Shown: positions 4,169-62,141 of the stretch, in pieces
Numbering within the stretch: the stretch's first letter is position 1
Layout of the letters: each line of letters starts with the position of its first letter
NCBI RefSeq assembly: GCF_963855985.1
Contig: NC_087099.1
Span: 14,166,001-14,230,000 of the forward strand
DNA: 64,000 nucleotides
DNA from: Ostrinia nubilalis
Lineage: Eukaryota; Arthropoda; Insecta; Lepidoptera; Crambidae
Direction of reading: 5' to 3'
Translations under genes and position numbers: made by a program
Notes under the pieces: model-generated
Told to the model about the DNA's origin: nothing
Database searches by the model: none
The model's input: the letters and a program-made list of their open reading frames with translations, nothing else

Positions 4169-7100
4169 ATGGCAAAGGCAGAATCAACGGGTCAGAGCAT
4201 AGAATGCTTGAACATAGATTTCATGCGGTCTTTGGTGAAACAATACTCAGAATTGGTTAGTATCTATCGTTTACAATGTTAGATAACTTGATATCGTACT
4301 GCATTTTTTGTATTTGTATCGTTACTTTACTCTAATTTTAGGATAAAGTTAAACTGGCACTGTGTCATGTTTTCTGGGTAAAATTAACAATTTTTTCCTG
4401 CCTAGGGACAATGGACCAGTGCATTATTCTGGGCTGATGCAGCGGCAGCAGCGGGCAGTGGCAATGGGTCTCCCAGCGGTGATGATATCTGGCTGCTGGC
4501 CAGCGTCATGCTCTCCCGAGGAGAACTGCACAGAGCTGCACATGCGGTTACCTCGAGAGAATTACACAGGTATTTAAGTGATGAGTGACACAAATAAGTG
4601 ACTATATTATTAGTGACAACAATATTATTTTATCAACTAACTAGCTGACCCGGCGAACTTTGTTCCGCCTTAATGGCAATAAATAAGCAGACTTTTTTTT
4701 TTATTTCGAACGGGATAAAAAGTATCCTATGTTCTTCTCCTGGCTCTAAACTACCTCCCTGACAATTTTCAGCTAAATCGGTTCAGCCGTTCTTGAGTTA
4801 TAAGTGGAGTAACTAACACGACTTTCTTTTATATATATAGATTCATCCAATAAATTGTTTTGATAGCTAGCACCTAGTTAAGTTTCTATAAGTTTTTGAC
4901 ATGCAAATAAACCAATTGATTCGATTTGTTAGATAGATTATTTCCTAAAGCCTATTTGAAACACATTGTAGCTCAAAAAGTGTCAATTTGTTAGGAAAAT
5001 ATCCTACTACTCGTACAAGTCAACATTTAAACATTGCAGGAGGCATCTCTTGTGTCTGGGGGTGGCGATGCGAGCGTACCTCTCTGCACGTGAGCCTGCC
5101 ACAGCTCTCACCATGATGGAGGAGTGCGACCCAGCGCTGCTCGAGCCACGGACGACCGACCAGACTCACAATGTAAGTTTTATTATTGATAGTGTGTTTT
5201 CTTGGATATTCCACATGAAATTACTGTATGTTGTTTTCCAATAAATGCATTGTTGATACCAGATTTTGCTAGGTTTCAGTCTTGATAACTATGATGATTC
5301 TGGAAGGGGTTTCTAACCGCTTTTGTGTCAATATTTTAGCAAAAACTGCATGGTTTTCATTTTTCAAATCAAATCACATCAAAAATTTTGACCAGTAAAT
5401 TATCATCTATAAAATTAGCTTTAGTAAGTTATGACAGGAGATATCTTCCTTTTGCTAGTAGGAAGGGTCCCTATAGAGTGAATACAGCTCATGTCACATC
5501 ACATCCTATTTATAATTCTTACAGAGGGCGCTAGCAGGAGTACTAGTGTGGCAGGCGCGTGCATTATGGGCTTTGGAGCGACGGGAGGCGGGCGCGGCGG
5601 CGCTGTGCGCGGCGCTGAGGGCGGACTGTGCGTGCTACGAGGCGCTGGAGCTGCTGCTGGAGCGGCACGCGCTCCCGCCCGCCCAGGGTGAGTGTCTAGG
5701 GCGGGGCCGGGCGGCAGGGCGGACTGCGCGTGCTACGAGGCGCTGGAGCTGCTGCTGGAGCGGCACGCGCTCCCGCCCGCCCAGGGTGAGTGTCTAGTCT
5801 AGGGCGGCGCTGAGGGCGGACTACGTGCTACGAGGCGCTGGAGCTGCTGCTGGAGCGGCACGCGCTCCCGCCCGCCCAGGGTGAGTGTCTAGTCTAGGGC
5901 GGCGCTGAGGGCGGACTACGTGCTACGAGGCGCTGGAGCTGCTGCTGGAGCGGCACGCGCTCCCGCCCGCCCAGGGTGAGTGTCTAGTCTAGGGCGGCGC
6001 TGAGGGCGGACTACGTGCTACGAGGCGCTGGAGCTGCTGCTGGAGCGGCACGCGCTCCCGCCCGCCCAGGGTGAGTGTCTAGTCTAGGGCGGCGCTGAGG
6101 GCGGACTACGTGCTACGAGGCGCTGGAGCTGCTGCTGGAGCGGCACGCGCTCCCGCCCGCCCAGGGTGAGTGTCTAGGGCGGCGCTGAGGGCGGACTACG
6201 TGCTACGAGGCGCTGGAGCTGCTGCTGGAGCGGCACGCGCTCCCGCCCGCCCAGGGTGAGTGTCTAGTCTAGGGCGGCGCTGAGGGCGGACTACGTGCTA
6301 CGAGGCGCTGGAGCTGCTGCTGGAGCGGCACGCGCTCCCGCCCGCCCAGGGTGAGTGTCTAGTCTAGGGCGGCGCTGAGGGCGGACTACGTGCTACGAGG
6401 CGCTGGAGCTGCTGCTGGAGCGGCACGCGCTCCCGCCCGCCCAGGGTGAGTGTCTAGTCTAGGGCGGCGCTGAGGGCGGACTGCGCGTGCTACGAGGCGC
6501 TGGAGCTGCTGCTGGAGCGGCACGCGCTCCCGCCCGCCCAGGGTGAGTGTCTAGGGCGGCGCTGCGGGCGGACTACGTGCTACGAGGCGCTGGAGCTGCT
6601 GCTGGAGCGGCACGCGCTCCCGCCCGCCCAGGGTGAGTGTCTAGTCTAGGGCGGCGCTGAGGGCGGACTGTGCGTGCTACGAGGCGCTGGAGCTGCTGCT
6701 GGAGCGGCACGCGCTCCCGCCCGCCCAGGGTGAGTGTCTAGTCTAGGGCGGCGCTGAGGGCGGACTGCGCGTGCTACGAGGCGCTGGAGCTGCTGCTGGA
6801 GCGGCACGCGCTCCCGCCCGCCCAGGGTGAGTGTCTAGGGCGGCGCTGCGGGCGGACTACGTGCTACGAGGCGCTGGAGCTGCTGCTGGAGCGGCACGCG
6901 CTCCCGCCCGCCCAGGGTGAGTGTCTAGTCTAGGGCGGCGCTGAGGGCGGACTGTGCGTGCTACGAGGCGCTGGAGCTGCTGCTGGAGCGGCACGCGCTC
7001 CCGCCCGCCCAGGGTGAGTGTCTAGGGCGGGGCCGGGCGGCAGGGCGGCGCTGGAGCTAAGTATAGTTAACGAATACCACTGCCAATTCAATCAGTACGT

Positions 7101-10100
7101 CGCGGCCACCGACACGTTACCACCCATTACCACGCGCGATACCACCAAACCACCCATTACCACACATTACCAAGCGCGTTACCACCCATTACCACGCGCG
7201 TTACCACCCATTACCACGCGCGTTACCAATTCAATATGCCTCTATGCTACTTCCAATTTGTCTGGTCAGCGTATGCCAAATCCTCTATTTACCTCTGGTA
7301 TTAGAGAGGGATGACGTTGATGACAAAGAACTATACTTTGTTTCCAGAAACAGAGCTGATAGAATCGCTTTCGCTGTCGTCTCAGCTGAGCGGCCCCGAG
7401 GCGGCGTTAGTACGGGCCGCGTACCGCGAGCGACTCAACAGATACGCCGCGCCAGCGATTGAGCCGTCGCCAGAACCCACCTGCCCGGTGAGTGCTGATT
7501 TAACTACCGACAACTCCACCCCGAGGCGTTTCGACCTCATGACAACTCCACCCCGAGACATTTCGACCTCAGGACAACTCGACCTCGAGACATTTCGACC
7601 TCATGACAACTCAATAGTCTTGGGTTCGGATTGTCGTCGGGACTGCTCTTTTATACGGGAAAACTTTATTACATTAAAATGGATGCCTACTCAACCATAT
7701 TGAAAAGACAATGGTTTTCTGTAATTTCTTTTTCATAAGTTTGTCGTTTACCTACTGTACGAATACGAGTACGAGACTGGAGATTTTTTTAGCGGTGGTG
7801 CATTTGGACAAAATTGTATACTCTATGAACTCTATCCTTCTCAAAATGTACCCGAAAAGTGCAGTTGGAAAATAAAAACTATTTTTTGTACAAAATCGGC
7901 CGCCTTTATTTGTTAAAGGGTAGTATTAAAACGAGTGACTGCAAATTAAAGTTTTAAGTGTCAAAAATAATTAATTTAGGTTATAGTATTACTAAGTAAG
8001 CGACTGACTGCGAAAGATGAGAAATCAACAGAACAGCAACTAACAAACATTAATTTGAGGTACTTAAAATACACAATGAGATGCTTCTTAATATTTGAGC
8101 GACCTAATATTTGTTTGAGCGCCAACGTTACGTCCTGCATTATTTTCAATATTTGGCAAATGTTTTTTTTATACTGAGCGGCATTTTATCTTAAATGAAG
8201 TGTTTCAAATACAAAAACCACTGAAAAATACTACAATGAACAAAGTATTATGAGCTCACATTAAAAATGATATTTGAAGAAACACTATTATATTAGCCAA
8301 GTAATTATTAAAATTTAAGGGTAGGTAATGAAATGAAACAAGTAATAATAATATGCATTTACATATTATATCGAAATAACAAAACAAAATAAGTCACTTC
8401 AGTCAACTACAAAAAGTAATATCATTAATTGTATGGAACATTGATAGGCATAAGGAGCCCTACTATGTATTATACTCATCGTCATTGGCAAATAAGTGCT
8501 GGCTTGGACTTAGCAGGCCCACCTTGTTTTCTTTTTTGTCCAATGGGAATCATTTTTGCTTCTAGTGGTAGTGTTGTTAATTTCAGCCGAATTACTAGAT
8601 CCAAAACGTATCCATATCCATTGTCCAAGCTCAATATTAGGTGCCTCAGGTAACGTAGAGGATTCTAATGACTATTGGGCTACCATATAGGTAGCAACAG
8701 ACAGAAATAGCGACAGAGGAATTCTCTTATGAAGTTACTTCATTAGAAAACATATCAAAATAAAGAACATAAGACCTCACATAGAATATCAGTAACCAAT
8801 AATCATTAATAATGCAGCTCACAAAACTTTGCTGGAAGTGAACTTTTTAGTTGTTCGTTGGAAATAACTTCAATTGGAAAAAATCGAATCTATCTTTATA
8901 TTGAAGTTGCCTCTTTGTATTTCTAGTCGCTCACTTAGTAATGTAATCGCACGGACAGAATTTTAATATCTAAAATGGATTAAACATAACCCACTTTTTG
9001 TAAGCTCGTTCTGCATTTCATTATTAATCAATATTCATCGTTAGTTAAGTTAATTTTTCGCTTACTCAAATTCATACCGCTCAATTTATTAAAACAGTAT
9101 GCCATCATCAGTCGCTAAGTTATTTTTTAGTCGATCGTTTTATAATTCCCCTTTGTTAAATAGCGTTCACCAGTGAAACAGACATATTTGCCGGACCACT
9201 AACAAATATTTTATTTCCCATAGATGGTGTCAGAAGTAGAGACTTGCCGCCTGCGTACCTCTGAGGCGGCAATTTGCCGCGCGCGGCGGTTAGCCGCCGG
9301 CTGCGAGTGGGCCGCGGCCCTCAAGTTACTGGATACTGTGGACCCCTGGTGCTGTGGCGAAGTCCGGGCGGCGTGCCTAGTGGAGTTAAAGAAGAGTTCA
9401 GAACTGTTTGCCTTCGCACATACTCTGGTGGATGCATACCCTAATAGTTGGATATCGTGGTTTGCAGTCGGATGCTACTATTATCTTATTGGTGAGTGTC
9501 TTTTAGACGGCTAGAGTTTGATTTAGGCATTAATAGATCTAAAAATAGCTCGGATGGTTCGCTCTCAAGCTTCTGGATACTGTGGACCCCTGGTGCTGCG
9601 GGGAGGTCCGGGCGGCGTGCCTAGTGGAGCTAAAGAAAAACTCGGAACTGTTCGCATTCGCACATACTCTGGTGGATGCGTACCCTAACAGCTGGATATC
9701 GTGGTTTGCAGTCGGATGCTACTATTATCTTATTGGTGAGTTTTTTCTGAGACCACTGTTGTGTTCAAATCAAGCTATTGCTTGATTTAGCTTCAGAAGA
9801 CCTTGGAATTATCGCTCTCAAACTACTGGATACTGTGGACCCCTGTTCAAAGAGGCGGAAATTTGCCGCGCGCGGCGACTACCTGCCGGCTACGAGCTCA
9901 AGTTGTTGGATAATGTGGACCCCTGGTGCTGTGGAGAGGTCCGAGCGGCGTGCCTAGTGGAGTTAAAGAAAAGCTCGGAACTGTTTGCATATGCACACAC
10001 TTTGGTGGATGCATACCCTAATAGTTGGATATCGTGGTTTGCGGTCGGATGCTACTATTATCTTATTGGTGAGTTTTTTTTTGAGACCACAAAAGCTTCA

Positions 10101-13100
10101 ATAAACCTTTGAATTCTTCGCTCTCAAACTACTGGATACTGTGAACCCCTTGTAAGGGAGGCGGCAATTTGCCGCGCGCGGCGGCTGGCCGCCGGCTGCG
10201 AGTGGGCCGCGGCTCTCAAGTTGTTGGATACTGTGGACCCCTGGTGCTGCGGGGAAGTTCGAGTAGCGTGCCTAGTGGAGTTAAAGAAGAGCTCGGAACT
10301 GTTTGCTTTCGCGCACACTTTGGTGGATGCATACCCTAACAGCTGGATATCGTGGTTTGCAGTCGGCTGTTATTATTATCTTATTGGTGAGTGTCTTTTA
10401 GATGACTAGAGTTTGATTTAGGCATTAATAGCTCTAAGAATAGCTCGGATGGTTCGCTCTCAAGCTGCTGGATACTGTGGACCCCTGGTGCTGCGGGGAA
10501 GTTCGAGCAGCGTGCCTAGTGGAGTTAAAGAAGAGTTCAGAACTGTTTGCCTTCGCACATACTCTGGTGGATGCATACCCTAATAGTTGGATATCGTGGT
10601 TTGCGGTCGGTTGCTATTATTATCTTATTGGTGAGTGTCTTTTAGACGACTAGAGTTTGATTTAGGCATTAATAGCTCTAAGAATAGCTCGGATGGTTCA
10701 CTCTCAAGCTACTGGATACTGTGGACCCCTGGTGCTGTGGAGAGGTCCGCGCGGCGTGCCTAGTGGAGTTAAAGAAAAGCTCTGAGTTGTTGGCATTTGC
10801 GCATACTCTGGTGGATGCATACCCTAATAGTTGGATATCGTGGTTTGCGGTCGGATGCTACTATTTATGAGAGAAAATAAAATAAAAAGCAAGAGTGATT
10901 GATAATAACGTTGTATTTAAAATTTAAATACATATAAGTATTTAATTACATTATTTATTATAGTTATAAATCATATAAAATGATGTTTATATATTTATAT
11001 TTAATAACATTTTGTTATTCAACCAAATATTCTATGTATCAAGCCATTATAATATTATAATTATAACAACAGTAAATAGGTATTGCATTACATAATACAA
11101 TTAGTTTACCTGACGAGCTCCGTCCGGGCCCGCAGTCGGCCAACAACTAACTGGCTCTGCGCGCTGCAGGCGCTTTTATAATACGACACAAACAAGCGGC
11201 AAGGCAAGGTGGGGAGAACACGTAATGCTTTTTGTCGTTGGAATAACAAGTCGTTTGTAAACTCCTTGTTTAAATTTAAATTAAGATATATTTTTTTAAT
11301 AAAATAAATTAATCTCCCACACGGCCATACTGACGAGCAGCCGACATAGTCAGGCTCGCGAATAACACTTTGCAAATAAATTATTTAATCATTTTGATAT
11401 ATCAAAGAAAATCAACAACATAATACAATCATTGACAAAAATGTGATCATACACATTATTTTTAAATCGTATGTATCTTAAAGTTCGGCCTCGGTAAAAA
11501 ACGCCGAATCATACGGCACAGCCATTGATGTGGGCCTCGGTAAAAACGCCGAATGTACGGCACAGCCTCTTTTTTAATGTGTGGGCCTCGGTAAAAACGC
11601 CGAATGTACGGCACAGCCTCTTTTTTAATGTGTGGGCCTCGGTAAAAACGCCGAATGTACGGCACAGCCTCTTTTTTAATGTGTGGGCCTCGGTAAAAAC
11701 GCCGAATGTACGGCACAGCCTCTTTTTTAATGTGTGGCCTCGGTAAAAAACGCCACAAGGGCACGGCCAAAAATTTACATTTGTGCTCATTACCCTGTAT
11801 ACATCCAGACATCTGGCCAGGATTCAAGGAGTATACAAAACGATGAGCTCAAATCACGAAACTTTAAAAAATATAATTTTCAGTACTCAAACTAATTTCA
11901 ATTCCCGCCTTAGGCAGTTCGATTATTTTTTTCAAGTTATTTATAATAACAGTTTTTTTTTTCAATGCACGTTTATCCAATTGCTCTACAAACATCTTAA
12001 TCAAGGCGTCCAAAATAAATAAAAAGAGCAGAGGTGGCAGGAGGTGTTCGATGGCACCCGTCAAGTGGCTGGAATGTATTGAATAAACTATTTATTGCTC
12101 ATTGGAACTTTTGTAACCACATCTTTCCAGCCCCTTGCCGAGGTGTTTTAAATAAGCGTGAAGCAATCATTGCAGTCAGAACCCTCATAAGACCTTAGAC
12201 TTGGCTGTTTGCGTGCCTGACACCACTAATTTCTATTATAAAATGAAGTTCAATATTTATTTATTTATTTATTGGGCTATCAACATGTGATACAGGATAC
12301 AGTATTAAACACAACAAAACAAATATACCATATTGTGGCAAAAGTTTCACAATTCCTGTGCCTGTGTGTGTGTGTGATGCTGCGTAATTAAACTTTGTAC
12401 AGATGTCCGACAATAAACCGTATGCAATACATTGACAGGAGGGCGCCAAAGACTTTATTGATTTAGTTCCCATTTTTGCCACGTTCGACAACCGTGATAA
12501 AAATATAATTCTTAGATAATATTATATATATTTTTTTAATATATTTTTGCCACTCGACGTTTCAAAATCGTTATGACTCTACAGGCCGCTGCATGTTGTG
12601 ACGAGTGACGTCCGAGATTTCTAGTAGCAATGTTTAAAGGTATTTTAAAAATATTAAAAATAAAAGTACTGGATCACTTGGCATTATGCCAAGGTTAGAA
12701 AAATGTGACAATTACAAAAACCTTGCATATTCCCTATTCAATATGGCAGCTGCCGTGAGATTGGCGACATGTCATAAAAGAGAGTACAGTACAATGAACA
12801 AGGCAATTCTTAAAATTCTTCGGACATTGGTAGTTATAATTGAGAACCAAAATTGTTTACTGATTTTGCAGAAGTTTGTTTATTACTCGTATTTTGTTGC
12901 TTAAAGCAATTTTCAAATTTGTCATAATAACTACAAAAGTAAAGTGGTAGAGTGTGTGCCTCTTCTTTTTTTTTTTTTTGAGACTCAGCATTCAATTGAC
13001 CATTTGTAGATTGAGCGGTGGTGGAACTAGTACTAGGAATATGATTTATTTATTTATTTATTTATACTTCAATGCCAAAAATATTAACATTAGGCGAACT

Positions 13101-16100
13101 TAATGCCATAAGGCATTCTCATCCAGTTTACCTTTGGAATATGATTATTAGTTATTGTTATTACTTAAAACAGTATGACAGTCCCTTTGAAAATGTCTTA
13201 GATAAAAACATCTTTGGAAACATTGATGAACATTATGTTACACTAGATAAGTTGGGGAAGAGGTACAACGATTGGTAGTGCCAATGACTAGGCTTTCGAA
13301 CGAAACACCGGGAATAATCAATGGTTCCACACTAAAAACATATTTCCAACTACTTGTTGTAACATAACTGATTTTGCTTTAAACGGTACTAAATTTACCT
13401 ATCGACTAAAAGAAACAACACATCAACCAATTTTAAATCAAAAATGAATAGCAAAATGTGTTGGTAAGCGCATAACTCAACAACGCATGAACCAATTTTA
13501 TCATTTTTTTTTTAAATTATCGTTGTTGTCCAAGGATGGTTTTTAAGACGGAAAAATTCGAATAATTTCCGGAAAACCTCTAAAAAATAAAATCGAAACT
13601 CGAGGTCGCTAGTATCAAATAAAAACAAATTTTTAACTCATCCAGCCCCCCTAGACAAAACGCACTTTTTGATCGAATCGAAAATCGAATCCGTCAAAAC
13701 TCCATACAAATAAGGGGCTTTTCGACCACTTTTCGACTGGTTCGCGATTATAATTTGCACTTTGTCTAGACAAATTTTCATTATATTTCGCGAGAAATTT
13801 GACGTAGCGCATCACCATGACAGAAAAGATATTTTTCGCGGTATTTCCAGTTATTTCGTTATCACTATTTTGTGTTGTTACTAAATAATAAATTCTTCAT
13901 TTAGCATTTTTTTTTTCTTATTTATTATTTATTAGTCAGTGAACCTTAATATTTGCATAAAAATCTCGGAGTGCTGATCACTGATGGGTGCCAGCATTAG
14001 CACCCGTTTCCCTAATTACCGCGCCGAGGTGTTGCCACTGAACTAAAGGCCACAGCCTTAATTGTAGCTCAAGTCATTTCAGTGCTCTACGTGACGCGGA
14101 TCGAGTGACGCGGACGAAAAATAGCAAAAATGGGTAAATGCGCAGTGAAAGAGTGCGATTCAAGATCACAAAAATATCTGGAATTACTTTCCACATGTAA
14201 GTCTATTGTATCTGTGTTTATATCATAGTAAAAACACAATAAAATGAGGAATTTTTTTTTTTAAATATTAATTTCAGTGTTTCCACTAGGTAAGAACCTA
14301 GTTTTAAATGTTGTAGAAATCGAAAAAGAGATACTAGGTGCAATAACTGAATCGCCGTTTTAAAGCATCAAACGAGGAAATAACCACCACAATTCACCGT
14401 TTTTAAAAATGTATTGACTAGAAGACTAAGAAAAATTAAAAATATTCACAAAGAAAATGTCTTAAATATTTGAATAAACTTCTAATACACATTCAATAAG
14501 AAATTTATAAAATTATTTCACTTGACGTTTAACGTCTTTTTAAACTTTTTTTTTTTATGACTTAAAAAGTTGGGTAAACTTTGTCATGGGTAGGAAACCT
14601 CATCGCGCCATTACATGTCTAAGGGGAGGTTACACCAAATAAAAAGGATATTAACTTTGACAAACGTAAAATATCTGTGAAACTCCATACAAAAACACCG
14701 GTGGTCAAAGTTAGGTGGTTCCACTCAACCTAATTGTTTCTATTGCATTGTATTGTAATATTATAATTGCGAAAGTTAGTATGGATGTTTGGATGTTAAC
14801 ATGTAAGTATTTTTTTCTCTTTCACGCAAAAACTACTGAACGGATTCTGGGGAAATTTACAGTTTTACTGTTTATAACCCAGAATAAACTATAATTTATG
14901 AAGATCCGTTGCAGACTAAATTTAAAGCCGTGGGCTAAAGGTATTCTAGTGGTTCCAAGCTATGTCATCGCGTTTCAGTAGCAACATTTTTAACACATTT
15001 TAATGAGGTTTGTTTCTCTAGTTAATAGCTCAATGTTTTGCAACGCTGCAATTTATATTCAGATTTCATTTCTTTAAAGGAATAACATGATCACGATCCG
15101 CATCAGACACTGGCTATTTACGTTCGTAAGAATTCAGGCTTTGTATTACTTGAGGTAGATAGACTCAACGAGACTAAGCAGTGAACTCTAAAGACAAGGG
15201 CTGCCACAATAGATCAAACCTGGTTGAGCTGGCGCAAATGAAGGCCCAAAAACCAATAATAATACTTGAGGTATAAGGTTTTAGGTGTCAGTCGCAACAA
15301 GTCCGATCAAATATGAAAGTCTGACATACCTGGTATTACGGCTTCCACCAAATGCGATTCAGTCACCTCCATGCCAACTGCCTTCATTTGCGAGTTACGT
15401 ACTCTGCTAGGTTGCTCGCCTTATCGCTAGTGCTTGAACCAGCACTTCGGCCGGCCAGCATCATGCGTGCTGGAAGCAGGCCGGTGGCGCTGAAGTCCTG
15501 GGTCAGGTGACTCAGGCGTCTCGGCTGCATCATTCAGGCTGATGCTGTTGACTCGTCATCGTGCTGCGTCTCTGAAACTCGTAAACAAGAATATATGTGA
15601 GCAAGATGCCCTAATTTTGTTCAGATCCCACTTCTGATATGAGAGAAAATAAAATAAAAAGCAAGAGTGATTGATAATAACGTTGTATTTAAAATTTAAA
15701 TACATATAAGTATTTAATTACATTATTTATTATAGTTATAAATCATATAAAATGATGTTTATATATTTATATTTAATAACATTTTGTTATTCAACCAAAT
15801 ATTCTATGTATCAAGCCATTATAATATTATAATTATAACAACAGTAAATAGGTATTGCATTACATAATACAATTAGTTTACCTGACGAGCTCCGTCCGGG
15901 CCCGCAGTCGGCCAACAACTAACTGGCTCTGCGCGCTGCAGGCGCTTTTATAATACGACACAAACAAGCGGCAAGGCAAGGTGGGGAGAACACGTAATGC
16001 TTTTTGTCGTTGGAATAACAAGTCGTTTGTAAACTCCTTGTTTAAATTTAAATTAAGATATATTTTTTTAATAAAATAAATTAATCTCCCACATATTATC

Positions 16101-19100
16101 TTATTGGTGAGTTTTTTTTTGAGACCACAAAAGCTTCAATAAACCTTTGAATTCTTCGCTCTCAAACTACTGGATACTGTGAACCCCTTGTAAGGGCGGC
16201 GGTAATTTGCCGCGCGCGGCGGCTGGCCGCCGGCTGCGAGTGGGCCGCGGCCCTCAAGTTGTTGGATACTGTGGACCCCTGGTGCTGCGGGGAAGTTCGA
16301 GTAGCGTGCCTAGTGGAGTTAAAGAAAAGCTCGGAACTGTTTGCCTTCGCGCACACTTTGGTGGATGCGTACCCTAACAGCTGGATATCGTGGTTCGCTG
16401 TTGGGTGCTACTATTATCTTATTGGTGAGGTTTTTTTTGAGACCACTATTGTGGTCAAATCAAGCTATTGCTTGATTAAAGCTTCAGAAGACCTTGGAAT
16501 TATCGCTCTCAAACTACTGGATACTGTGGACCCCTGGTCAAAGAGGCGGAAATTTGCCGCGCGCGGCTACTAGCTGCCGGCTACGAGCTCAAGTTGTTGG
16601 ACACTGTGGACCCCTGGTGCTACGGGGAGGTCCGAGCGGCGTGCCTAGTGGAACTTAAGAAAAGCTCGGAACTGTTTGCATTTGCGCATACTCTGGTGAA
16701 TGCTTACCCTAAAAGCTGGATATCGTGGTTTGCTGTTGGGTGCTACTATTATCTTATTGGTAAGTCACTTTTTGAAGCGACTATAGCTCAGGAATTAGGC
16801 TTAAGAAGAGCTCGAAAAGCTCAAGCTCGGAGTATCATTTGTTGAGGTAACAATAGGCCAAAGATAGCTAAATATAAATAAATATAAATACATCACTGGA
16901 TTATATAGACTAGAAATATTGGCTCTAAGGGTGTGTATGGTGTGTATGATAGCATATTGGACGTTAAAAGTTCTTGGAATTATTCGCTCTCAAACTCCTG
17001 GATACTGTGGACCACTGGTGCTGCGGGGAGGTCCGAGCGGCGTGCCTAGTGGAGCTTAAGAAGAGTTCAGAATTGTTTGCGTTTGTGCATACTCTGGTGG
17101 ATGCGTACCCTAACAGCTGGATATCTTGGTTCGCGGTCGGATGCTACTATTATAATATTGGTGAGTGTCTTTTAGACGACTAGAGTTTGATTTAGGCGTT
17201 AATAGATCTAAGAATAGCTCGGATAGTTCGCTCTCAAGCTTCTGGATACTGTGGACCCCTGGTGCTGTGGCGAGGTCCGAGCGGCGTGCCTAGTGGAGTT
17301 AAAGAAGAGCTCAGAACTGTTTGCCTTCGCACATACTCTGGTGGATGCATACCCTAACAGCTGGATATCTTGGTTCGCTGTTGGGTGCTATTATTATCTT
17401 ATAGGTAAGTTTTTGGAGGCTGCATAATGAAGTTCAGAAGAGCTTGGAATTATTCTCTCTCAAACTGCTGGATACTCTGGACCCTTGGTGCTGTGGGAAA
17501 GTCCACACGTCGTATCTAATCAAGGAAAGAGCTTCGAATAATTCCCCTAAGTTTTACTATCCTCCCTCCATGACATAAGAACCCTCATAACAATCTTTAA
17601 ATCCGGGGGTCTACTAAAAACCACAAAACCCAGAAGTAGTTCATGAGACTAAAAAGTTTGAGATCTCCAATCCACAGTCAACTATAGTCTGGTCCGTGAG
17701 CATGTAGAATTTTGTCCAATGACCCCAAGCTACCCATCCTTATCGCTTGCGCGTAATTATGTTGCTATCGCGCTCGCACACTATCTGCGGGTGCCAGTCG
17801 CACAGTCGCGACAGCAATATAATTACGCGCGAGCGATAAGGATGGGTAGCTAGGGGTCATTGGACAAAATTCTACGTGCTCACGGACCGGGCTTTAGATA
17901 TGTGATCCATTGAAGTATTTATTTGTGTCTTGCAGGCAAGAACGAGTTCGCGCGTCGCTACCTGAGCAAGGCGAAAGGGCTCGAGGCGGGTGCGGGCTGC
18001 GCGTGGCTGGCCTACGGGCACTCCTTCGCCGCCGACTCCGAGCACGACCAGGCCATGGCCGCATACTTCAAGGTACGTCGGCCACCGACGCGATACCACT
18101 CATCACATCACATCACATCACAAACAGCGATGTAGTAGCGATACTGTCGCGCGTTCACATTGATTCAGTCGCAATGCAAACGTGATACTGATTTTTAGAT
18201 GGTTGACTGGCAGAAAATGCCGAAAGGCATTAAGTCCGCCTTATGTACACTCTTCTATGTGCATATAAGTTTTAAATAAATAAATAAATAAAATACTGTC
18301 GCGCTTCTGTCACGATGCAAACGTGATTTAGTAATCCTTCTTCCGTTCTCTCCCCGATGTCGTTCCGACACGGTCGCACGTTTGTATCGATACAGTCGCG
18401 CGGCTGTAGCGCATTGGCATCACTTCTGTAGCGCGATGCAAATGCGACTAGCGCACTGTCGTTCGTTTACGAAACGTGCAACACTAAAAACAGCATCACT
18501 AAAAAAGTTGCCGTGGGCGAGGAGTCTTACCCTGCGCGTTACCACCCATTACCACGCGCGTTACCACCCATTACCACGCGCGTTACCACCCATTACCACG
18601 CGCGTTACCACACTTACTACGCGTGTTACCGCCCATTAACACGCGCGTTACCACCCATTAGCACGCGCGTTACCATCCATTACCACGCGGGTTACCACCC
18701 ATTACCACGCGCGTTGCCACCCATCACCACGCACATTGCCACCCATTACCACGCGCGTTACCACCCATTACCACGCGCGTTACCATCCATTACCACCCTT
18801 TACCCCTCGTGTAACCGCTCATTACCACGCGCGTTACCGTCTATTACCACGCGCGTTATCACCCAAACCACACTCGTAACCACCCCTTATCACGTGCGTC
18901 ACCACGCGTTAAGCTTAATACGCATTAATCCAGTGGCGAGTAATTTTAGCGAAACGTGTGCGAACACCAAAAATTTTGTTTAGAGTCCCATACTAGAGAA
19001 ATTCACTGCAAGCGAATTTCACACTTATTACTCGAGAAGAAAACGATTCAAAATACACTAAACCAATTCAGAGACCAGTCACTGCTCGCTCGTGATAAAT

Positions 19101-22100
19101 CATGCCCGCGTGGTCGCTGCACGTGTTTTGTTTTCGATGCCTACTCGGAGAGATGTATAGAATAGAATAGAATAGAAAAACCTTTATTTGACACAAAAAC
19201 ACAAATGAAAATGAACAAATAAAATAAAATAAGATGAGGCGTAGCAAAACTCAATTTGTTACAAGTCTCTGACTGACAGACCCACTGGGTCTAAAGCCCG
19301 GTCTGTGAGCACGTAGAATTTTGTCCAATGACCCCAAGGTACCCATCCTTATCGCTCGCGCGTAGTTATATTGCTGTCGCGACTGTGCGACGGGCGCCCG
19401 CAGTGAGTGTGCGTGCCACATAATTACGCGCGAGCGATAAGGATGGGTAGCTTGGGGTCAGTGGACAAAATTCTACGTGCTCGCAGACCAGACTTTAGAC
19501 AAAGTGTACATTATTTGCCATTGGAGTTTTGACGGACTTCATTTTCGATTCGATCAAAAAGTGAAACTTGTTGGTGGGCAAGTCTAGTTGTTGTTACTTT
19601 TGTTTCACAAATAAATATTTTTTACTTTGACTGTGTATTTGCAGGCGAGTCAATTGATGGGCGGATGCCACCTGCCGCCGTTGTACGTGGGGGTAGAGTG
19701 TTCACTACTCAACAACTCCGCCATGTGTGAGCGTTTTCTAGCGCGCGCCGCCGCACTGCATAGCAACGCCGAGGTAAGTGTTCCAGGAACTATCCAGCTT
19801 TACCTATCCGTGTATCCCGTTAAAACCTGTTTAAATTAATGAGACTATCTTGCTTGTCTGGAAACATCCAGGTGAGTCAGCTGATGCCGTGCCCCCAAGA
19901 ACTGATGTGACGTGTTGAGAAACATTTTCGGTCGACAATGTTTTTTGCAACGAACATATAATTATATAATTTCGGGTATATTCCCGGCACTGGGAATAGT
20001 GGACCCGCATAACCAGTACTTTTATCTTGCTCGAAGGACCAGAATGTGTGTAAAAACATGAGTCCAGTGCAAAACCACGAAATTAAAAAAAATCTACTCA
20101 ATAGTTAGCAAAATTGTGTCACCATTTAGCGCATCACACGCGTTATGTTTCTTGTTTCCATTTTTACAATGGGTGAAGAATACGCGTGCATTCGTCACTT
20201 ATTGCTCGCTTGTGAAATAAAGCCGCCGACACGTCTCGCGTATTTTGTTTTCGATGCCTATGTAAAGTTGGCGGTTCGCATCGCGACAGAGACAGGAGAA
20301 AGAGACGCGAGACCGAGACGAGAGACCGCGAACGTTACTTGACTTTATTTATTTATTTATTTATTTATTAGGTCTACCAACATTGTTACATTACAACATG
20401 TACACTTAAAAATAACAATTATGAACAAAGTTACAATGCAACAATGCAATGACTTTAGACAATGTTAAAGGTAGCATTCGGATCAAGACGACCGCGACGC
20501 GAGACCGCGACTCGAGACCGCGACAGGCAACCGGTCGCAGGTCGCAGGGCGACAGCTACTTACGAATCTTCGCGACACGAGTCGTGCGACCCATACGAAA
20601 CTTACTAATTCTATTAAAATTTCGTCTTCGTGCGAAGAAAACACGGCCATTTTGCATCTGTCGCGTCACGGCACTGCCTTGTGAGCGACCGAGTCGCGCG
20701 ACGCAAGTAGCCGGCAGGCCACGCCCACACGTCGCGCGACTCGGTCGCTTGCATCCGTCAGCACTTCCTATTAATTCATATAAAGCAGTGGGTCGCGGTC
20801 GCCGGTCGCGGTATCGAGTCGCGGTCTCGCGTCGCGGTCGTCTTGATCCGAATGCTACCTTTAGACAATAAGCGACGACAGTTCGAAAGCGAGACAGATA
20901 CAGACAAGTCTTTGTCTTAGTCACCTTAAGAAGTAGTTGTGAAAACTCTTTTTATTTATTTACTAGCTTTCCGCCCGCGGCTTCGCCCGCGTGGAATTTT
21001 GTCTGTCACAGAAAAACTTTATCGCGCGCGTCCCTGTTTCAAAAACCGGGATAAAAACTATCCTATGTTCTTTCCCGGGACTCAAACTATCTCTATGCCA
21101 AATTTCATCAAAATCGGTTGCGAGGTTTAAGCGGGAAAGCGTAACAGACAGACAGACAGACAGACAGAGTTACTTTCGCATTTATAATATTAGTTGGGAT
21201 TTAAACTATAATGCCAAAATAAATTTGTACATAAGGCGAACTTAATGCACTAAAGCATTCTCGACCAGTTTACCTTTTGGCAAATGTAAAGTTTAATTGG
21301 CAACTCTGTGTGTGTTATAGAAATATAGAATGCTGTTTGTTACAAGTTTCCAATTCAACTTACATTTCCAGGCGTCCTTAGACAAGATGGTGGAGCGCTC
21401 CGACGGCAAGGCCCACTGGGCGCGCCTCGTGCCGCTGGCGCACGAGCCGCACGTGGCGCACGAGGCGGGCGCCGCCGCCTTCGCCGCGGGAGACTACTCC
21501 GCCGCCCACCAGCTGTTCCTGCGAGCCCTACACGCGGCGCAGGGCGGCCGCGAGCCGGCGCAGGTAATAATAAGTACTACGTACAGAAGTTTTACTTCGC
21601 GAAGCTATTTAAAAAAATGTATGCTCAATGACATTAACAATATGGTGTAATTTAGCCTGTCTCAAGAGTCAATCACCGTTTTGTTGACAAACGTCAGTGA
21701 TCGGCACTGCGCCGAAGCTATAGGGCTGACTTCGGTAAAATGATGTGACGTGAGGTGCCAAACTGCGGAAAATGGCGGATGAAATACATGATTTAGCATG
21801 AATTATCATGAATAATATTAACTACTTATTTACCTCTCAGTGTCTTGAGGCAACTTAAAAAAGTACATTCTGTGTTTTTATTATTATTTAGGCAGTTAAA
21901 TACTGCACAGTATTTAGTACACCATTTTCTTTATTTTCTTCCATCATACACAAGAATACGCGTGCGTGAGTCAATGTTCGCTCGTATGTGAGGCCTTGTC
22001 GAATAGTATCCTGTAGGTGGGGCCATCGTGCGTGTTTTGTTTTCGATGTAAACTCGCGGAGATGAACAGGCCTGCTAGCCGCGGGAGACTACTCCGCCGC

Positions 22101-25100
22101 CCACCAGCTGTTCCTGCGCGCCCTACACGCGGCGCAGGGCGGCCGCGAGCCGGCGCAGGTAATAATAAGGGGTGCGTGACAGTTTATATAAGTTTATATG
22201 ATATAAATTCATTTCAATAACGTTCATATTGTATAATAAACGTATGTTATAATAACACTTGATATAATTTTTTAACATATAATGTTTACTTCATATAATA
22301 AATCATTTCTAATAATGTCATTTCAGATACCAATCAAAACGCATAAAGACATTTGATATAAACCTTACTTAATCTAAGACTCATTTGATGTAATTTTGTT
22401 TGATATAAATAATATTTCATATAACCATTACATAAAATAAATATTATTTGTTATAACGACTATTTGGTATACTCTTTAATTGATATAATTTCTGATAGAT
22501 AAAACTTTTAGTATGTTCTTCTTTAGCTTGACTTATAAATGACTTTAGTGACAAAAACGAATCGCCGTAAAACCGACTCCACGTAGTCTTGTCTGCCCTA
22601 CCCCTAGAGTGTAATTTAGAAGCGCGTAGGCACGGAGGGGCGAGGCGGCCCGCGGGCTGAGGAGCAGGTGGCTGGAAGCGAGGCGCCGCGGCTGAGGCTG
22701 GCCGGCGAAGCCGGCCAGCAAGCCGAAGACGCGGTGTCGAGCGAAAGCCATCTGCGACGATTAGCACGCGAGGGACCGCCAGAGCCCCGCAGTGCCGGAG
22801 CCGTGACAGAAGTCTCAAGTTTTTAGTCAAATTTGCATGCTGCATGCCTGCTTGCTTGCTTGCCTGCTTGCTTGCTTGCTTGCCTGCTTGCTTGCTTGCC
22901 TGCTTGCTTGCTTGCTTGCTTGCCTGCTTGCTTGCTTGCTTGCTGGCTTGCTTGCTAGCTTGCTTGCTTGCCTGCATGCTAGCTTGCTTGCTCGCTTGCT
23001 TGCTTGCTCGTTTGCTTGCTTGCTTGCTGCATGCAATGCTTATTATAACAATTGAACTTTATATACAATTATTATTGTTATATGATTTAAGTTTTATAGG
23101 AAAAGAATTTTATCTCATTTGATTGTTCGACACTTTATTTTTATATGATTTGAATATTATTTGTTTTAAATTTTATACATTGTAAGTTTTATAGAAAATA
23201 TTCATTATATCAAACCATTTTATATCAGTTAAATGTTATTTGTCTTAAAATTATTCGTTTTAAAATTATATTATTCGTTTATTATAGTAAATAATTATTA
23301 TATTAAATGATTTTATATAATTTGATGTTATATCCTCTAAGTATTATATGATATGTAGTTATATCATACATTACACACCCAATAATAAGTACTACGTACA
23401 GAAGTTTTACTTCGCGAAGGTATTCAAAAAAATGTATGCTCAATGACATTAACAATATGGTGTAATTTAGCCTGTCTCAAGAGTCAAGCACCATTTTGTT
23501 GACAAACGTCAGTGATCGGCACTGCGCCGAAGCTATAGGGCTGACTTCGGTAAAATGATGTGACGTGAGGTGTCAAACTGCGGAACTGGAAAATGGCGGA
23601 GGAAATACATGATTTAGCATGAATTATCATGAATAATATAAACTACTTATTTACCTCTCAGTGTCTTGAGGCAACTTAAAAAAGTACATTCTGTGTTTTT
23701 ATTATTATTTAGGCAGTTAAATACTGCACAGTGTTTAGTACACCATTTTCTTTATTTTCTTCCATCATACACAAGAATACGCGTGCGTGAGTCAATGTTC
23801 GCTCGTATGTGAGGCCTTGTCGAATAGTATCCTGTAGGTGGGGCCATCGTGCGTGTTTTGTTTTCGATGTAAACTCGCGGAGATGAACAGGCCAGCTAGC
23901 CGCGGGAGACTACTCCGCCGCCCACCAGCTGTTCCTGCGCGCCCTACACGCGGCGCAGGGCGGCCGCGAGCCGGCGCAGGTGAGCCTAGCGCCACAGAAT
24001 AATAATAAGTACAGTCGCAGAATGAAAAGGTTCGTCACCTTAGTGTCGGTTTTCGCTTGCACTAGGTACTGTGAAAGTCAAACCTGCCAACATAACAGTG
24101 CAAGAAACAGTGCTGCTAACATTTAAATAAATATGACGTTTGCTAACAAAAAAGGTTTTGCTTGTTTATTTTTCTATCCCATCAGTGCAATGCAATGATG
24201 ACATTGACCAATTGACAATAGTTTTTTTTATTTAATAGAAATAATAATGGCAGGTTGAACCAACAAGAAGGTTTTAGTTTATCAATCATAATAATCTTCT
24301 TGACAAGATAAATCGTCAAACAACTTTGATCTGGATAATTTTGAACTTTACTGACGAACAGTTAAAGATTATTTTCTCTAACTCGAGATTATTCTGTAAC
24401 ATAGTTTCAAAAGGTAATATGTGCTCGCGATTCGTTGAAGGAATCAATTTGAAAACTGACGAACCTTTTCATTCCGTGACTGTACTACGTACAGAAGTTT
24501 TACTTCGCGAAGGTATTTAAAAAAATGTATGCTCAATGACATTAACAATATGGTGTAATTTAGCCTGTCTCAAGAGTCAAGCACCATTTTGTTGACAAAC
24601 GTCAGTGATCGGCACTGCGCCGAAGCTACAGGGCTGACTTCGGTAAAATGATGTGACGTGAGGTGCCAAACTGCGGAACTGGAAAATGGCGGAGGAAATA
24701 CATGATTTAGCATGAATTATCATGAATAATATTAACTACTTATTTACCTCTCAGTGTCTTGAGGCAACTTAAAAAAGTACATTCTGTGTTTTTATTATTA
24801 TTTAGGCAGTTAAATACTGCACAGTATTTAGTACACCATTTTCTTTATTTTCTTCCATCATACACAAGAATACGCGTGCGTGAGTCAATGTTCGCTCGTA
24901 TGTGAGGCCTTGTCGAATAGTATCCTGTAGGTGGGCCATCGTGCGTGTTTTGTTTTCGATGTAAACTCGCGGAGATGAACAGGCCTGCTAGCGCGCAGAC
25001 AGCGAGGCGAGCTGGGCGCGCCTGCTGCAGGAGCCGAGGGAGCCGCGGGAGACTACTCCGCCACCAGCTGTTCCTGCGCGCCCTACGCGTCTAAAGTGAC

Positions 25101-58662: not shown

Positions 58663-59110
58663 ACCGGTTAAATCATGTTTGGCAAGTTCATGAGGGCAGA
58701 AGCGATTTGTACATACATTAGTAACATTCCCGTTAACTCCTTAGTTAAATCAAATTGGTTGTTTAATAGACAGTTAATAATAATAATCTAGAATCAAACT
58801 AACGAACTTGAATACAGAAGGACATGCGATTTATAAGGGCTACTTCTAAAGCAGTGTGGTACACCAAATCCTCTGACAGGAGTCGTCGACATTTTTGTCA
58901 ACGGATTAGGCAATTTTTTGTAGTGGCCGATTTTGTAACTGTCCGCAACAGTGGCTAGAGTGTTTGAGCACGTACTCAAAACGCAGACTTGTCGCCATAA
59001 GTCGGCGAACGACACGCGTGGATACAAATTCTGCCATGAATTGATGATGCTTTTGAAATAAAGTCACCGAGCTGAGTCGGTGTTTTAGTGTGTAAACTGC
59101 TTAAGTGTCA
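58663..59110. other. Intron of the unidentified gene
   Basis: Unremarkable sequence between the LINE fragment and the first exon copy. No exon seen. Confidence 0.45.
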
Positions 59111-59454
59111 CGCACCTTGGGATCGAGCGTGACGTGTACAGGCGCCTTGGGCGTGACGACGAGCACGGGCACGCGGCCGCCAGTTGATTGGTGGCGCCAA
59201 ACGATCTATTAAATAGACCATTGTCATTGGAATTGAAACCTTATCAACGCACCTTGGGGTCCAGAGTGACGTGTACGGGCGCATTGGGCGTGACGACGTG
59301 CACGGGCACGCGGCCGCCAAGTGATTCGTGACGTCAAATGGTCTATTACACTGTCATAGGAACTGAAACCTTATCAACGCACCTTAGGGTCCAGCGTGAC
59401 GTGTACAGGCGCCTTGGGCGTGACGACGTGCACGGGCACGCGGCCGCCAGTTGA

Positions 59455-59662
59455 TTCATCATCATCATCATCATTTCAGCCATAGGACGTCCATTGCTGA
59501 ACATAGGCTTCCCCCAATGCTTTCCACGTTGATCGATTGGTAGTGGCCTGCGTCCAGCGCTTCCCTGCTACTTTTACGATGTCGCCGGTCCACCTTGTAG
59601 GTGGACGTCCCACGCTGCGTTTTCCGGTACGCGGCCTCCATTCCAGAACCTTGCTGCCCCAG
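59455..59662 (-). mobile_element. RTE-type LINE 3' end, reverse orientation
   Basis: CATCATCATCATCATCATTT tail read backwards, then CAGCCATAGGACGTCCATTG and CACCTTGTAGGTGGACGTCC. Inserted inside one short exon copy. Confidence 0.85.
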
Positions 59663-59873
59663 TTGATTGTGGCGTCAAATGGTCTACATTGTCATTGGAA
59701 TTGAAACCGTATCAACGCACCTTGGGGTCGAGCGTGACGTGCACGGGCGCCTTGGGCGTGACGACGTGCACGCGCGCCAGCTGGGCGGGCGCCACGTGCG
59801 GCGCGCGGCACGGGCACGCGGCGGCCAGCGGCATGTCGGCGGCGTCTGATGGTCTACTACATTGTCATTGGAA

Positions 59874-60030
59874 TGAGGGCTATCGTTATTATACTTAACA
59901 GTTGGCACCCCTGGCGATTGGCAAGACCTTACTCTACAGTGGCGCCATCTTGATGAGTGCAAATGCGATAGTCCTCCTACCACTTTAGCGCTCACCAGCC
60001 GGCGCCACTGTCTTCGCTACTTAAGTTAAA
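59874..60030. mobile_element. MITE 'GAGGGCTATCG' (truncated copy) in the exon array
   Basis: GAGGGCTATCGTTATTATAC ... CGCCACTGTCTTCGCTACTT; it lacks the right terminus. The identical truncated copy at 62586-62741 shows the later block duplication. Longer copies, 60899-61222 and 63609-63932, contain a tandem internal segment of about 96 bp and the right end AAAACGATAGC. Confidence 0.88.
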
Positions 60031-60389
60031 GTAAGATTGAAACCTTATCCCACGCACCTTGGGGTCCAGAGTGACGTGCACGCGCGCCAGCTGGGCGGGC
60101 GCCACGTGCGGCATCAAAAGGTCTATTACATTGTCATAGGAATTGAAACCTTATCCCACGCACCTTAGGGTCCAGTGTGACGTGTACAGGCGCCTTGGGC
60201 GTGGCACGGGCACACGGCGGCCAGTTGATTAGTGGCGTCAAATGCATGGTCTATTACACTGTCATTGGAATCGAAACCTTATCAACGCACCTTAGGGTCG
60301 AGAGTGACGTGCACGGGCGCCTTGGGCGTGACGACGTGCACGCGCGCCAGCTGGGCGGGCACGCGGCCGCCAGTTGATTCTTCTTATTC

Positions 60390-60555
60390 GTTATGCTCTT
60401 GGCAGAGCGGTCGTGGTCACGTTGAGGCTTTGTTCACATCGGTTGTAGAGGCGGATACAACTTTCCACACGATCTCCCACCATCTCTCTCTATTGGCAGA
60501 CTGTCTGGTGCAGTCAAATACGCCGTCTCCCACTGCTGATTTGTGGCGTTGCCAG
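60390..60555. repeat. Retroposon fragment in the exon array (also 63101-63266)
   Basis: TTCTTCTTATTCGTTATGCT ... GATCTCCCACCATCTCTCTC: unlike the exon units, probably a LINE 3' end in reverse. Present twice because of the 2.7-kb duplication. Confidence 0.5.
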
Positions 60556-61424
60556 TTGATTTTGTGGCGTCTAATGGTCTACTACATTGTCATAGGAACT
60601 GAAACCTTATCAACGTACCTTAGGGTTCATCGTGACGTGCACAGGCTCCGTTGGGCGTGACGATGAGCACGGGCACGCGGCCGCCAGTTGATTGGCGTCA
60701 AATGGTCTACTACATTGTCATAGGAACTGAAACCTTATCAACGCACCTTAGGGTCCAGCGTGACGTGCACGGGCGCCTTGGGCGTGACGACGTGCACGCG
60801 CGCCAGCTGGGCGGGCGCCACGTGCGGCGCGCGGCACGGGCACGCGGCGGCCAGCGGCATGTCGGCGGCGTCTGATGGTCTACTACATTGTCATTGGAAT
60901 GAGGGCTATCGTTATTATACTTAACAGTTGGCACCCCTGGCGATTGGCAAGACCTTACTCTACAGTGGCGCCATCTTGATGAGTGCAAATGCGATAGTCC
61001 TCCTACCACTTTAGCGCTCACTAGCCGGCGCCACTGTCTTCGCTACTAGCAAGTGACAGGACCTTACTCTACAGTGGCGCCATCTTGATGAGTGCAAATG
61101 CGATAGTCCTCCTACCACTTTAACGCTCACTAGCCGGCGCCACTGTCTTCGCTACTAGCAAGTGACAGGACCTTACTCTACAGTGGCGCCAACTGGTGAG
61201 CGCTAAAACGATAGCTCTCATTGAAACCTTATCAACGCACCTTGGGGTCGAGCGTGACGTGCACGGGCGCCTTGGGCGTGACGACGTGCACGCGCGCCAG
61301 CTGGGCGGGCGCCACGTGCGGCGCGCGGCACGGGCACGCGGCGGCCAGCGGCATGTCGGCGGCGTCTAATGGTCTGTTACATTGTCATTGGAATTAAAAC
61401 CCTATCTCACGCACCTTGGGGTCT

Positions 61425-61730
61425 AGCGTCACGTGGCGTATCATATAGCTAGCTCATGACTTAGTACTGATATCCATATGTTGTCTTCGAATCGGTAACC
61501 CAAAAATGTGTGGGGAGCACTAACCATTTTGGGGTGCCCTGGCTTCCCGCTAAATGTATACCCAACTTATGACTGAGGGAGGGGGGAAGGGTGCCGCCAC
61601 TGGGTGGTAGCTAGCCAGGCGGACTTAGAACAAGCCCTACCACCAACCAAACCGGGACCTCTGCGTCTGAAGCAAAGACCGACAAGTGGTAACCTCTGTG
61701 GTCTCACTAGACCGAGGCGGTTAAGTTAAA
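61425..61730. other. Unique insert within the exon array
   Basis: AACCCAAAAATGTGTGGGGA, GAGGGAGGGGGGAAGGGTGC and CGGGACCTCTGCGTCTGAAG: about 300 bp absent from the other array units. Perhaps a retroposon fragment; ends not defined. Confidence 0.4.
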
Positions 61731-61978
61731 GTAAGATTGAAACCTTATCCCACGTACCTTGGGGTCCAGCGTGACGTGTACAGGCGCCTTGGGCGTGACG
61801 ACGAGCACGCGGCCGCCAACCGGTGGTGGCGTCAAATGGTCTATTACACTGTCATAGGAACTGAAACCTTATCAACGCACCTTAGGGTCCAGCGTGACGT
61901 GCACGGGCGCCTTGGGCGTGACGACGAGCACGGGCACGCGGCCGCCAATTGATTGGTGCCGTCAAAACGGTCTATTAG

Positions 61979-62141
61979 TGCGCCTTCACATTACGTCGCA
62001 AACAGTGCGGCGGCAGCGGCGTTTTTATAATGTGAAGGCAGGCATCCGCTGTCACATAGTATGAAATTATCGGCAGCGCGTCTGTCGCGCTGCTATAGTC
62101 GCGTTGCTGCCGCACTACTTGCGACGTAATGTGAAGGCGCT
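61979..62141. mobile_element. MITE, second copy of the element nested at 35194
   Basis: GTGCGCCTTCACATTACGTC and GACGTAATGTGAAGGCGC ends; interior (CTGTCACATAGTATGAAATT) is inverted relative to 35194-35348. Confidence 0.9.

Follow-up and report, generated by a model that had tools for sequence, protein, structure and literature searches.

Intron 6 of the Ostrinia nubilalis CDC16 gene, which lies in a 64-kb stretch of DNA analyzed here as a whole (the window), holds nine copies of the 3′ 166 nt of exon 6 (exon-6 nt 103–268; the core). Eight of the copies are intact and one is interrupted by an insertion; a decayed fragment then ends the array (Table 1). A hand-built 518-aa CDC16 model is 100% identical to an annotated CDC16 of Ostrinia furnacalis. 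A preliminary description of the locus had listed nine extra 166-nt cassettes. The array is real, but one cassette (c5) breaks off at 157 nt and resumes at 16094, past the insertion, and the additional fragment starts at 17465. The two 456-nt terminal repeats of the insertion are 100% identical to each other, and the longest open stretch wholly within it (128 aa) is located in its internal tandem repeat. Other anatomical features proposed earlier were confirmed. The eight intact copies contain no indel and continue into GTGAGT, GTGAGG or GTAAGT, eight of the nine copies are preceded by CTCAAG (c8 has CTCAAA instead), and the phases are as claimed: exon 5 ends at 0, the cassettes run from 0 to 1, and exon 7 starts at 1. 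Pieces of the exon-6 5′ part lie directly upstream of four copies: 51 nt with a 12-nt deletion at c2, a similar 51-nt piece at c7, 63 nt at c3, and 63 nt with two replacements at c6. Elsewhere in the window, a minus-strand gene at 59–64 kb gave no PDB match at E values up to 5.

Table 1. Features of the CDC16 exon 6 array (window coordinates; replacements are relative to exon 6)
Feature	Position	Strand	Description
CDC16 exon 6, functional copy	9224..9491	+	translation joins exons 5 and 7
Exon 6 5′ part	9224–9325		34 codons, complete only in exon 6 itself
Exon 6 core	9326–9491		166 nt
N-type spacer, first of four	9492..9561	+	the four follow exon 6 and the copies at 10221, 10465 and 16995
c1	9570..9735	+	intact core copy, GTGAGT donor, 1 replacement (S24N)
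c2	9903..10068	+	intact core copy, 2 replacements
c3	10221..10386	+	intact core copy, A15V
c4	10465..10630	+	intact core copy, zero replacements
c5	10709..10865	+	core copy broken by insertion after 157 nt; F28L
Insertion inside c5	10866..16093	.	456-nt terminal direct repeats
c6	16259..16424	+	intact core copy, A15V (common to c3 and c6)
c7	16594..16759	+	frame intact, 3 replacements (C10Y, D36N, N40K)
c8	16995..17160	+	3 replaced codons (P7H, A31V, L54N); acceptor AG lost (CTCAAA)
c9	17239..17404	+	intact core copy, zero replacements, GTAAGT donor
c10, decayed tenth fragment	17465..17504	+	
CDC16 exon 7	17936..18073	+	acceptor TTGCAG

Every core match found in the genome assembly sits at the CDC16 locus (at least 11 protein matches, 13 candidates; at least 10 DNA matches, 3 candidates), and no second CDC16 locus that might act as a donor was present among the scored candidates of the protein and DNA searches. 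Viral contigs searched for relatives of the core yielded a single, uninformative 14-residue match. Tandem arrays are error-prone and a single assembly was used, so alleles or paralogues could have been set out as an array. We regard such an artefact as highly improbable: the assembly comprises 52 contigs for 495 Mb, the distinct spacers, insertion and decayed end form a coherent array, and random errors are not expected to be synonymous.

The ten core copies, exon 6 included, contain 46 synonymous and 12 replacement variants. Leucine-codon sites at core nt 1 and 61, which were scored as replacements by the script, were reassigned by hand to the synonymous class. Neutral change would be 72–78% replacement (stops included), and the silent bias departs from the two ends of this range with binomial p values of 6e-20 and 1e-15. 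The codon counts given earlier against exon 6 were reproduced (12 synonymous and 1 replacement for the copy at 9570; 13 and 0 for that at 17239). Replacements are also mostly private to a single copy (11 of 12, compared with 14 of 46 synonymous variants; Fisher p 1.7e-4), A15V being the sole one common to two copies. These data support the conclusion that the copies have varied under purifying selection at the protein level. A hand count in the exon-6 5′ pieces next to c2, c3, c6 and c7, which lie outside the shared block, gave 6 replacement variants and 5 synonymous ones, leaving out the 12-nt deletion; the pieces differ from the core (Fisher p 0.029) and do not differ from neutral expectation (p 0.17). 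Because the presumed cassette and the block of homology common to all copies are the same 166 nt, this boundary of constraint fits exchange between copies and splicing alike.

As the preliminary description had argued, the copies are not simply drifting pseudo-exons. Drift in the complete absence of exchange is ruled out, to near certainty, by the binomial tests (p ≤ 1e-15), by the permutation test described below, and by simulation, in which dead copies accumulate 82 replacements each at equilibrium. The c10 fragment does behave in this way, with replacements at six of nine changed codons (ungapped comparison over 18 codons, to 17518).

The copies, including exon 6, are mosaics. In a PHI-type permutation test, adjacent informative sites were more compatible than permuted ones (k=1, 0.276 vs 0.664, 0/5000), as were sites at wider steps (p 0.0002 at k=2, 0.022 at k=4 and 0.006 at k=8). 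Sites at least 12 informative positions apart appear independent (0.760 vs 0.777, p 0.37), and some linkage persists when all site pairs are taken together (0.664 vs 0.746, 0/300). Exon 6 and c4 have zero differences across core nt 61–135 and 10 elsewhere, and the exon 6 core carries no private variant among the ten copies. Gene conversion with the functional exon, raised as an alternative in the preliminary description, is thereby backed, and the pattern fits exchange in either direction.

Spacers and cores are discordant. Any two of the four N-type spacers differ at 2–4 of 70 positions, and spacers of one type generally show 2–6% differences (the A type also has two single-base gaps), whereas the cores adjoining same-type spacers differ at 15–42% of fourfold sites. 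Over all 45 pairs of cores the fourfold-site distance averages 30% (range 14–45%). The low divergence between copies expected of a gene-conversion pool was therefore not found (mean fourfold distance 0.30), and the high divergence fits such a pool only if the pool is population-wide. Together, discordance and mosaicism are unexpected for old independent exons and expected for copies trading short tracts with a working exon.

The preliminary description had proposed that the cassettes are mutually exclusive exons, with exon 5 joined to exon 6 or to one cassette and then to exon 7. On this account the better cassettes would be translated and under selection, with some conversion. The frame and phases, the lack of indels in eight of nine copies, the GT donor retained in all nine, and the stronger constraint on the core than on the exon pieces directly upstream all fit. 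Its acceptors fit less well. Scored with a matrix built from nine true acceptors only, the proposed cassette acceptors rank 113–419 among 440 intronic AGs. With a different matrix, whose training set included it, the exon 7 acceptor far outscored all remaining intron 6 AGs. In leave-one-out scoring with the nine-site matrix, true acceptors reach −3.3 to 9.7; c1, c4, c5 and c9 fall slightly under this range (−3.6 to −6.1, the best cassette at −3.6 against −3.3 for the weakest true acceptor left out), and c2, c3, c6 and c7 score −15 to −18. The latter four have T-poor exon sequence at the tract position, with 2–3 Ts at positions −20 to −4 compared with 6–11 in true acceptors. A plausible 3′ splice site is thus not present at every copy, c8 having no AG at all; eight of the nine copies are phase-compatible and open, c5 being interrupted.

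The predicted products likewise argue against alternative exons. Distinct protein versions do not recur across copies (only A15V occurs in two; each of the remaining 11 replacements is confined to one). The products would be near-identical and would be missing 34 first-helix residues. The annotated protein contains the full exon 6, and the first-helix segment is missing from none of the 47 relatives, among the best 52, whose alignment reaches most of it. In post hoc comparisons, copies with better acceptors have fewer replacements, as splicing predicts: of the 12 replaced codons, two fall in c1, c4, c5 and c9 (binomial p 0.046; 0.070 with the shared A15V counted once), and acceptor score correlates with replacements (Spearman −0.75, p 0.02, n=9) more strongly than does distance from exon 6 (0.45, p 0.23), the correlation expected under exchange within a pool. 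The selection part of the earlier proposal thus stands, but mutually exclusive splicing, given weak exon-derived acceptors and near-identical peptides, is not supported; we consider it unlikely, and exchange of tracts with the working exon is a more likely source of the silent bias than alternative exons.

With little more than even confidence, we favor a germ-line exchange pool seeded by tandem duplication of an exon end. In this view, a segment comprising the 3′ end of exon 6, its 5′ splice site and the beginning of intron 6 would have been duplicated in tandem to give the copies, and we infer that these are skipped in the mRNA, as they have no good acceptor. Short tracts would pass in the germ line between the copies and the working exon, by ectopic gene conversion or unequal crossing-over, within the 166-nt block common to all copies and at a rate that may be hundreds of times the mutation rate. 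Exon 6 would thus be a mosaic supplied by a pool with some ten slots. A sequence would be under purifying selection while it occupies the exon-6 slot; replacements would be rare and private because sequences often pass through that slot, and synonymous variants would build up throughout the enlarged pool.

Simulations of a pool selected at the exon-6 slot only, with exchange at 900 times mutation (picked to match the replacement count), gave 1.2 replacements per cassette (the nine real cassettes have 12 replaced codons) and a spacer diversity of 0.034–0.037. Synonymous distance was 0.12 at 150 haplotypes, 0.185 at 400 and 0.21–0.23 at 800 (observed 0.30), with 23–27 synonymous variants per haplotype (observed 46) and a private fraction of replacements of 0.76–0.82 (observed 0.92). 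The modeled pool is thus of the right order of magnitude, with too little silent diversity. Weak selection on all cassettes with slower exchange, as mutually exclusive splicing would entail, reproduced the counts and spectra (synonymous distance 0.29–0.36, 39–47 variants, private replacements 0.93–0.98), and in these models fits as well as or better than the pool; the simulations fail to separate the two. Repeated overwriting of dead cassettes by exon 6 alone is very unlikely: it yields few replacements (1.55 per cassette) but, under the one parameter set run, a synonymous distance of 0.063, about one-fifth of that observed.

Three further exon-end arrays in the window resemble that of exon 6, and one of the three is also silent-biased, giving two silent-biased arrays of four. 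In the exon-4 and exon-9 arrays, exon- and intron-derived parts of the unit are equally similar, as in a minisatellite; in the exon-6 array they are unequally similar, unlike in an intronic minisatellite. These arrays bear on another explanation, in which an old array undergoes frequent, mutagenic break repair that elevates synonymous change in the shared block while selection on exon 6 purges replacements. The divergence peak does coincide with the recombining block, and four bases occur at wobble sites 3, 87 and 147. Nevertheless, there is no direct evidence of a raised mutation rate, the same exchange would still be required to purge replacements, and the exon-4 and exon-9 arrays have no such peak, making this explanation improbable.

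Among known systems, Dscam likewise has tandem, phase-compatible, in-frame exon copies in one gene with a donor per copy. For Dscam arrays 4 and 6 in Daphnia, PMC3236188 reports paralogous exons that differ in amino acids and no detected gene conversion; the CDC16 array differs in its near-identical proteins, strong mosaicism and weak acceptors. The Drosophila Amy tandem duplicates also exchange between neighbors, with conversion estimated at about 100-fold the rate of synonymous mutation (PMC2588116), but in CDC16 the partners are partial exons within an intron and the pool keeps high synonymous diversity. Non-functional neighbors are described as exchanging with the functional copy in MHC, plant R and immunoglobulin genes (PMC3924837), where a diverse product is favored, whereas the CDC16 protein is constant and only silent diversity is left. 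Red/green opsin exon 5 is described there as a divergence peak flanked by more similar introns; that peak lies around amino-acid differences that selection maintains, while the CDC16 peak is silent. Among the papers listed in literature searches, none reports such a CDC16 array in its title or abstract.

A strong synonymous-over-replacement bias in duplicated exons is usually read as proof of translation. CDC16 suggests that it can also come from untranslated copies recombining with a functional exon, so recombination and spacers should be checked when dN/dS is used to look for hidden alternative exons. If the splicing reading were true, CDC16, an APC/C scaffold, would have alternative TPR exons, which would be unexpected. 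The exchange pool instead predicts that, in this essential APC/C subunit, a single exon is extremely polymorphic at silent sites. Tentatively, exon ends, each carrying its 5′ splice site, may be recurrently amplified in this moth genome into intronic "exon reservoirs" that trade sequence with the working exon, so that coding exons of essential genes could become silently hyperpolymorphic while the protein stays fixed.

On sequence grounds, the gene is CDC16 (APC6), a TPR scaffold of the APC/C: exons 5-8 match the chains assigned to CDC16 in solved APC/C structures (lowest E 1.7e-53), and a hand-built ten-exon model is 100% identical over 518 aa to an annotated Ostrinia furnacalis protein, which places the source of the window in O. 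furnacalis or a near relative. Downstream of exon 6 lie nine additional copies (cassettes c1-c9) of its 166-nt 3' core; eight are intact, c5 is interrupted by a 5.2-kb insertion, and the array terminates in a decayed fragment (c10) at 17465. The coordinates and codon counts of the preliminary description were borne out when the copies were rechecked against exon 6; its observation is correct, and odder than first described. Codons 1-34 of exon 6 are complete only in exon 6 itself, with partial copies (63 or 51 nt) adjoining c2, c3, c6 and c7 upstream. The matches to exon 6 found in the genome (52 contigs, 495 Mb; at least 11 by protein and at least 10 by DNA) are all at the CDC16 locus. The insertion, whose longest wholly internal open stretch is 128 aa and which contains a 51-bp tandem repeat (11529-11754), resembles a recently inserted, non-autonomous LTR element. 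Smaller repeats also occur in CDC16 introns: a 22-bp minisatellite (TTACCACGCGCGTTACCACCCA) is common to introns 4 (7115-7228) and 7 (18527-18905), look-alike short elements with inverted ends (GTAGAATTTTGTCCAATGACCCCAAG...), MITE-like by eye, are present in introns 6 (17690-17895) and 7 (19300-19500), and intron 9 carries a TTGC tetranucleotide array of ~49 copies (22833-23028).

Exon-derived arrays and the insertion in the window
Feature	Position	Strand	Description
Exon 6 core		 	3' 166 nt of CDC16 exon 6, 9326-9491
Cassettes c1-c9		 	starts 9570, 9903, 10221, 10465, 10709, 16259, 16594, 16995, 17239
Insertion in c5	10866-16093		456-nt terminal repeats, 100% identical to each other
Exon 4 array	5525-7025		~95-bp units carrying the 3' end and 5' splice site; an identical 54-nt core occurs 15 times, counting the exon itself
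Exon 9 array	21372-25089		3' end; three extra copies, 22078-22159 (98.8% identity), 23899-23980 (98.8%) and 25042-25089 (88%)
Exon-end array of a further gene	59110-63507	minus	12 copies, then GTGCGT (GTACGT once)

Variation among the ten copies (the exon 6 core and c1-c9) is overwhelmingly silent, with 46 synonymous variants, two leucine sites having been assigned to this class by hand, and 12 replacements, where neutrality would predict 72-78% replacement (p 6e-20 and 1e-15 by binomial test for the two ends of that range). In the dN/dS comparison that the preliminary description had proposed, mean pairwise dS was 0.70 and dN 0.025 over 45 pairs. Eleven of the 12 replacement variants but 14 of the 46 synonymous variants are private to a single copy (Fisher p 1.7e-4), and therefore the shared, older variation is nearly all silent. 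The c10 fragment, in which six of nine changed codons among 18 are replacements, serves as an in-place control for this bias.

Spacers of the same type are nearly alike (2-4 differences in 70 for type N, six pairs from four copies; 7 in 167 plus two single-base gaps for type A; 3 in 152 for type B), but at fourfold sites the cores show a mean difference of 30% (14-45% across 45 pairs); exon and spacer histories therefore differ. In a PHI-type test, adjacent informative sites were far more compatible than in permuted order (0/5000 at k=1; p 0.0002, 0.022 and 0.006 at k=2, 4 and 8), sites at least 12 informative positions apart appeared independent (p 0.37), and some linkage remained over all site pairs, a value as low being reached in none of 300 shuffles. 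The core copies are mosaics of short tracts, exon 6 among them; exon 6 has no private variants and is identical to c4 across core nt 61-135.

The preliminary description had read the cassettes as mutually exclusive alternatives to exon 6. Acceptors were scored with a matrix built from the nine true acceptors of CDC16. The acceptor AG is absent from c8, and the eight cassettes retaining it rank 113th-419th against the 440 other AG sites of intron 6. Scores are -3.6 to -6.1 for c9, c1, c4 and c5 (-3.3 for the weakest true acceptor, left out) and -15 to -18 for c2, c3, c6 and c7, where positions -20 to -4 are exon sequence with 2-3 T, versus 6-11 in true acceptors, and 9-10 pyrimidines of 17, close to the 9-13 of true acceptors. 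The CTCAAG preceding cassettes is normal exon 6 sequence (codons 33-34). In the predicted cassette isoform, 34 residues would be missing from the first helix of a TPR, a loss found in none of 47 relatives with alignments spanning most of the segment (from the best 52 of 712). Replaced codons number 1, 0, 1 and 0 in c1, c4, c5 and c9, and 2, 1, 1, 3 and 3 in c2, c3, c6, c7 and c8; the better-acceptor group thus has 2 of the 12 replacements (p 0.046, or 0.070 if A15V, present in c3 and c6, is counted once), and replacements fall with acceptor score (Spearman -0.75, p 0.02, post hoc, n=9). This trend told against a pool in which the copies and working exon 6 trade short tracts in the germ line, the correlation that such a pool predicts, of replacements with sequence distance from exon 6, being weaker (0.45, p 0.23). 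The pool's sole account would be that c1, c4, c5 and c9 exchanged with exon 6 more recently; these are mostly nearer exon 6 in sequence as well. Mutually exclusive splicing is possible, with some support from the fewer replacements behind better acceptors, but it is not the best account.

Forward simulations were performed in three runs (10, 4 and 4 parameter sets; 150 haplotypes in the first) against observed values of 1.3 replacements per cassette, a synonymous distance of 0.30 and spacer diversity of 0.02-0.06. Dead copies without exchange accumulated 82 replacements per cassette (150 haplotypes), and one-way overwriting from exon 6 gave 1.55 replacements with a distance of only 0.06; both were rejected. 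With symmetric exchange among 150 haplotypes, replacements numbered 51.5 at 10x mutation, 12.8 at 100x, 1.47 at 900x (distance 0.12) and 0.66 at 3000x (distance 0.11); a quarter of the diversity at 900x gave 1.19 and 0.083. Larger populations at 900x yielded 1.17-1.24 replacements, spacer diversity of 0.018-0.050 and distances of 0.13-0.23 that varied with diversity and size, those with 800 haplotypes being 0.21-0.23. Without allelic crossing-over the distance was 0.016, and therefore the pool has to be population-wide. Strong selection on all cassettes left <0.1 replacements and distances of 0.22 to 0.74; when every cassette was weakly selected and exchange was slower, the corresponding values were 0.9-1.6 and 0.29-0.36. 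Under these models, weakly selected cassettes fit the data as well as the pool or better, and they are disfavoured solely on splice-site and product grounds. Two published results make the exchange mechanism plausible in kind: conversion enlarges effective population size according to Mano and Innan (as cited in PMC3924837), and in Drosophila Amy it is estimated at ~100x the mutation rate (PMC2588116). The rate that the pool would require at the CDC16 array is ~9x the Amy estimate.

Exons 4 and 9 of CDC16 share the layout of a working exon whose 3' end and 5' splice site recur downstream. Many exon 4 units are out of frame through a 2-nt deletion, GACTACG replacing GACTGCGCG or GACTGTGCG, and the copies in both arrays are too uniform to test. 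In the minus-strand array, synonymous variants outnumber replacements by 7 to 2 (p 0.003, taking 72% replacement as the assumed expectation, some copies lying within larger duplicated blocks and hence being non-independent), and its spacers are not less diverged than its fourfold sites (0.29 versus 0.21). The most likely account of the exon 6 array is that partial exons in the intron form a pool that recombines, and the further exon-end arrays favour a general process rather than a splicing system specific to CDC16.
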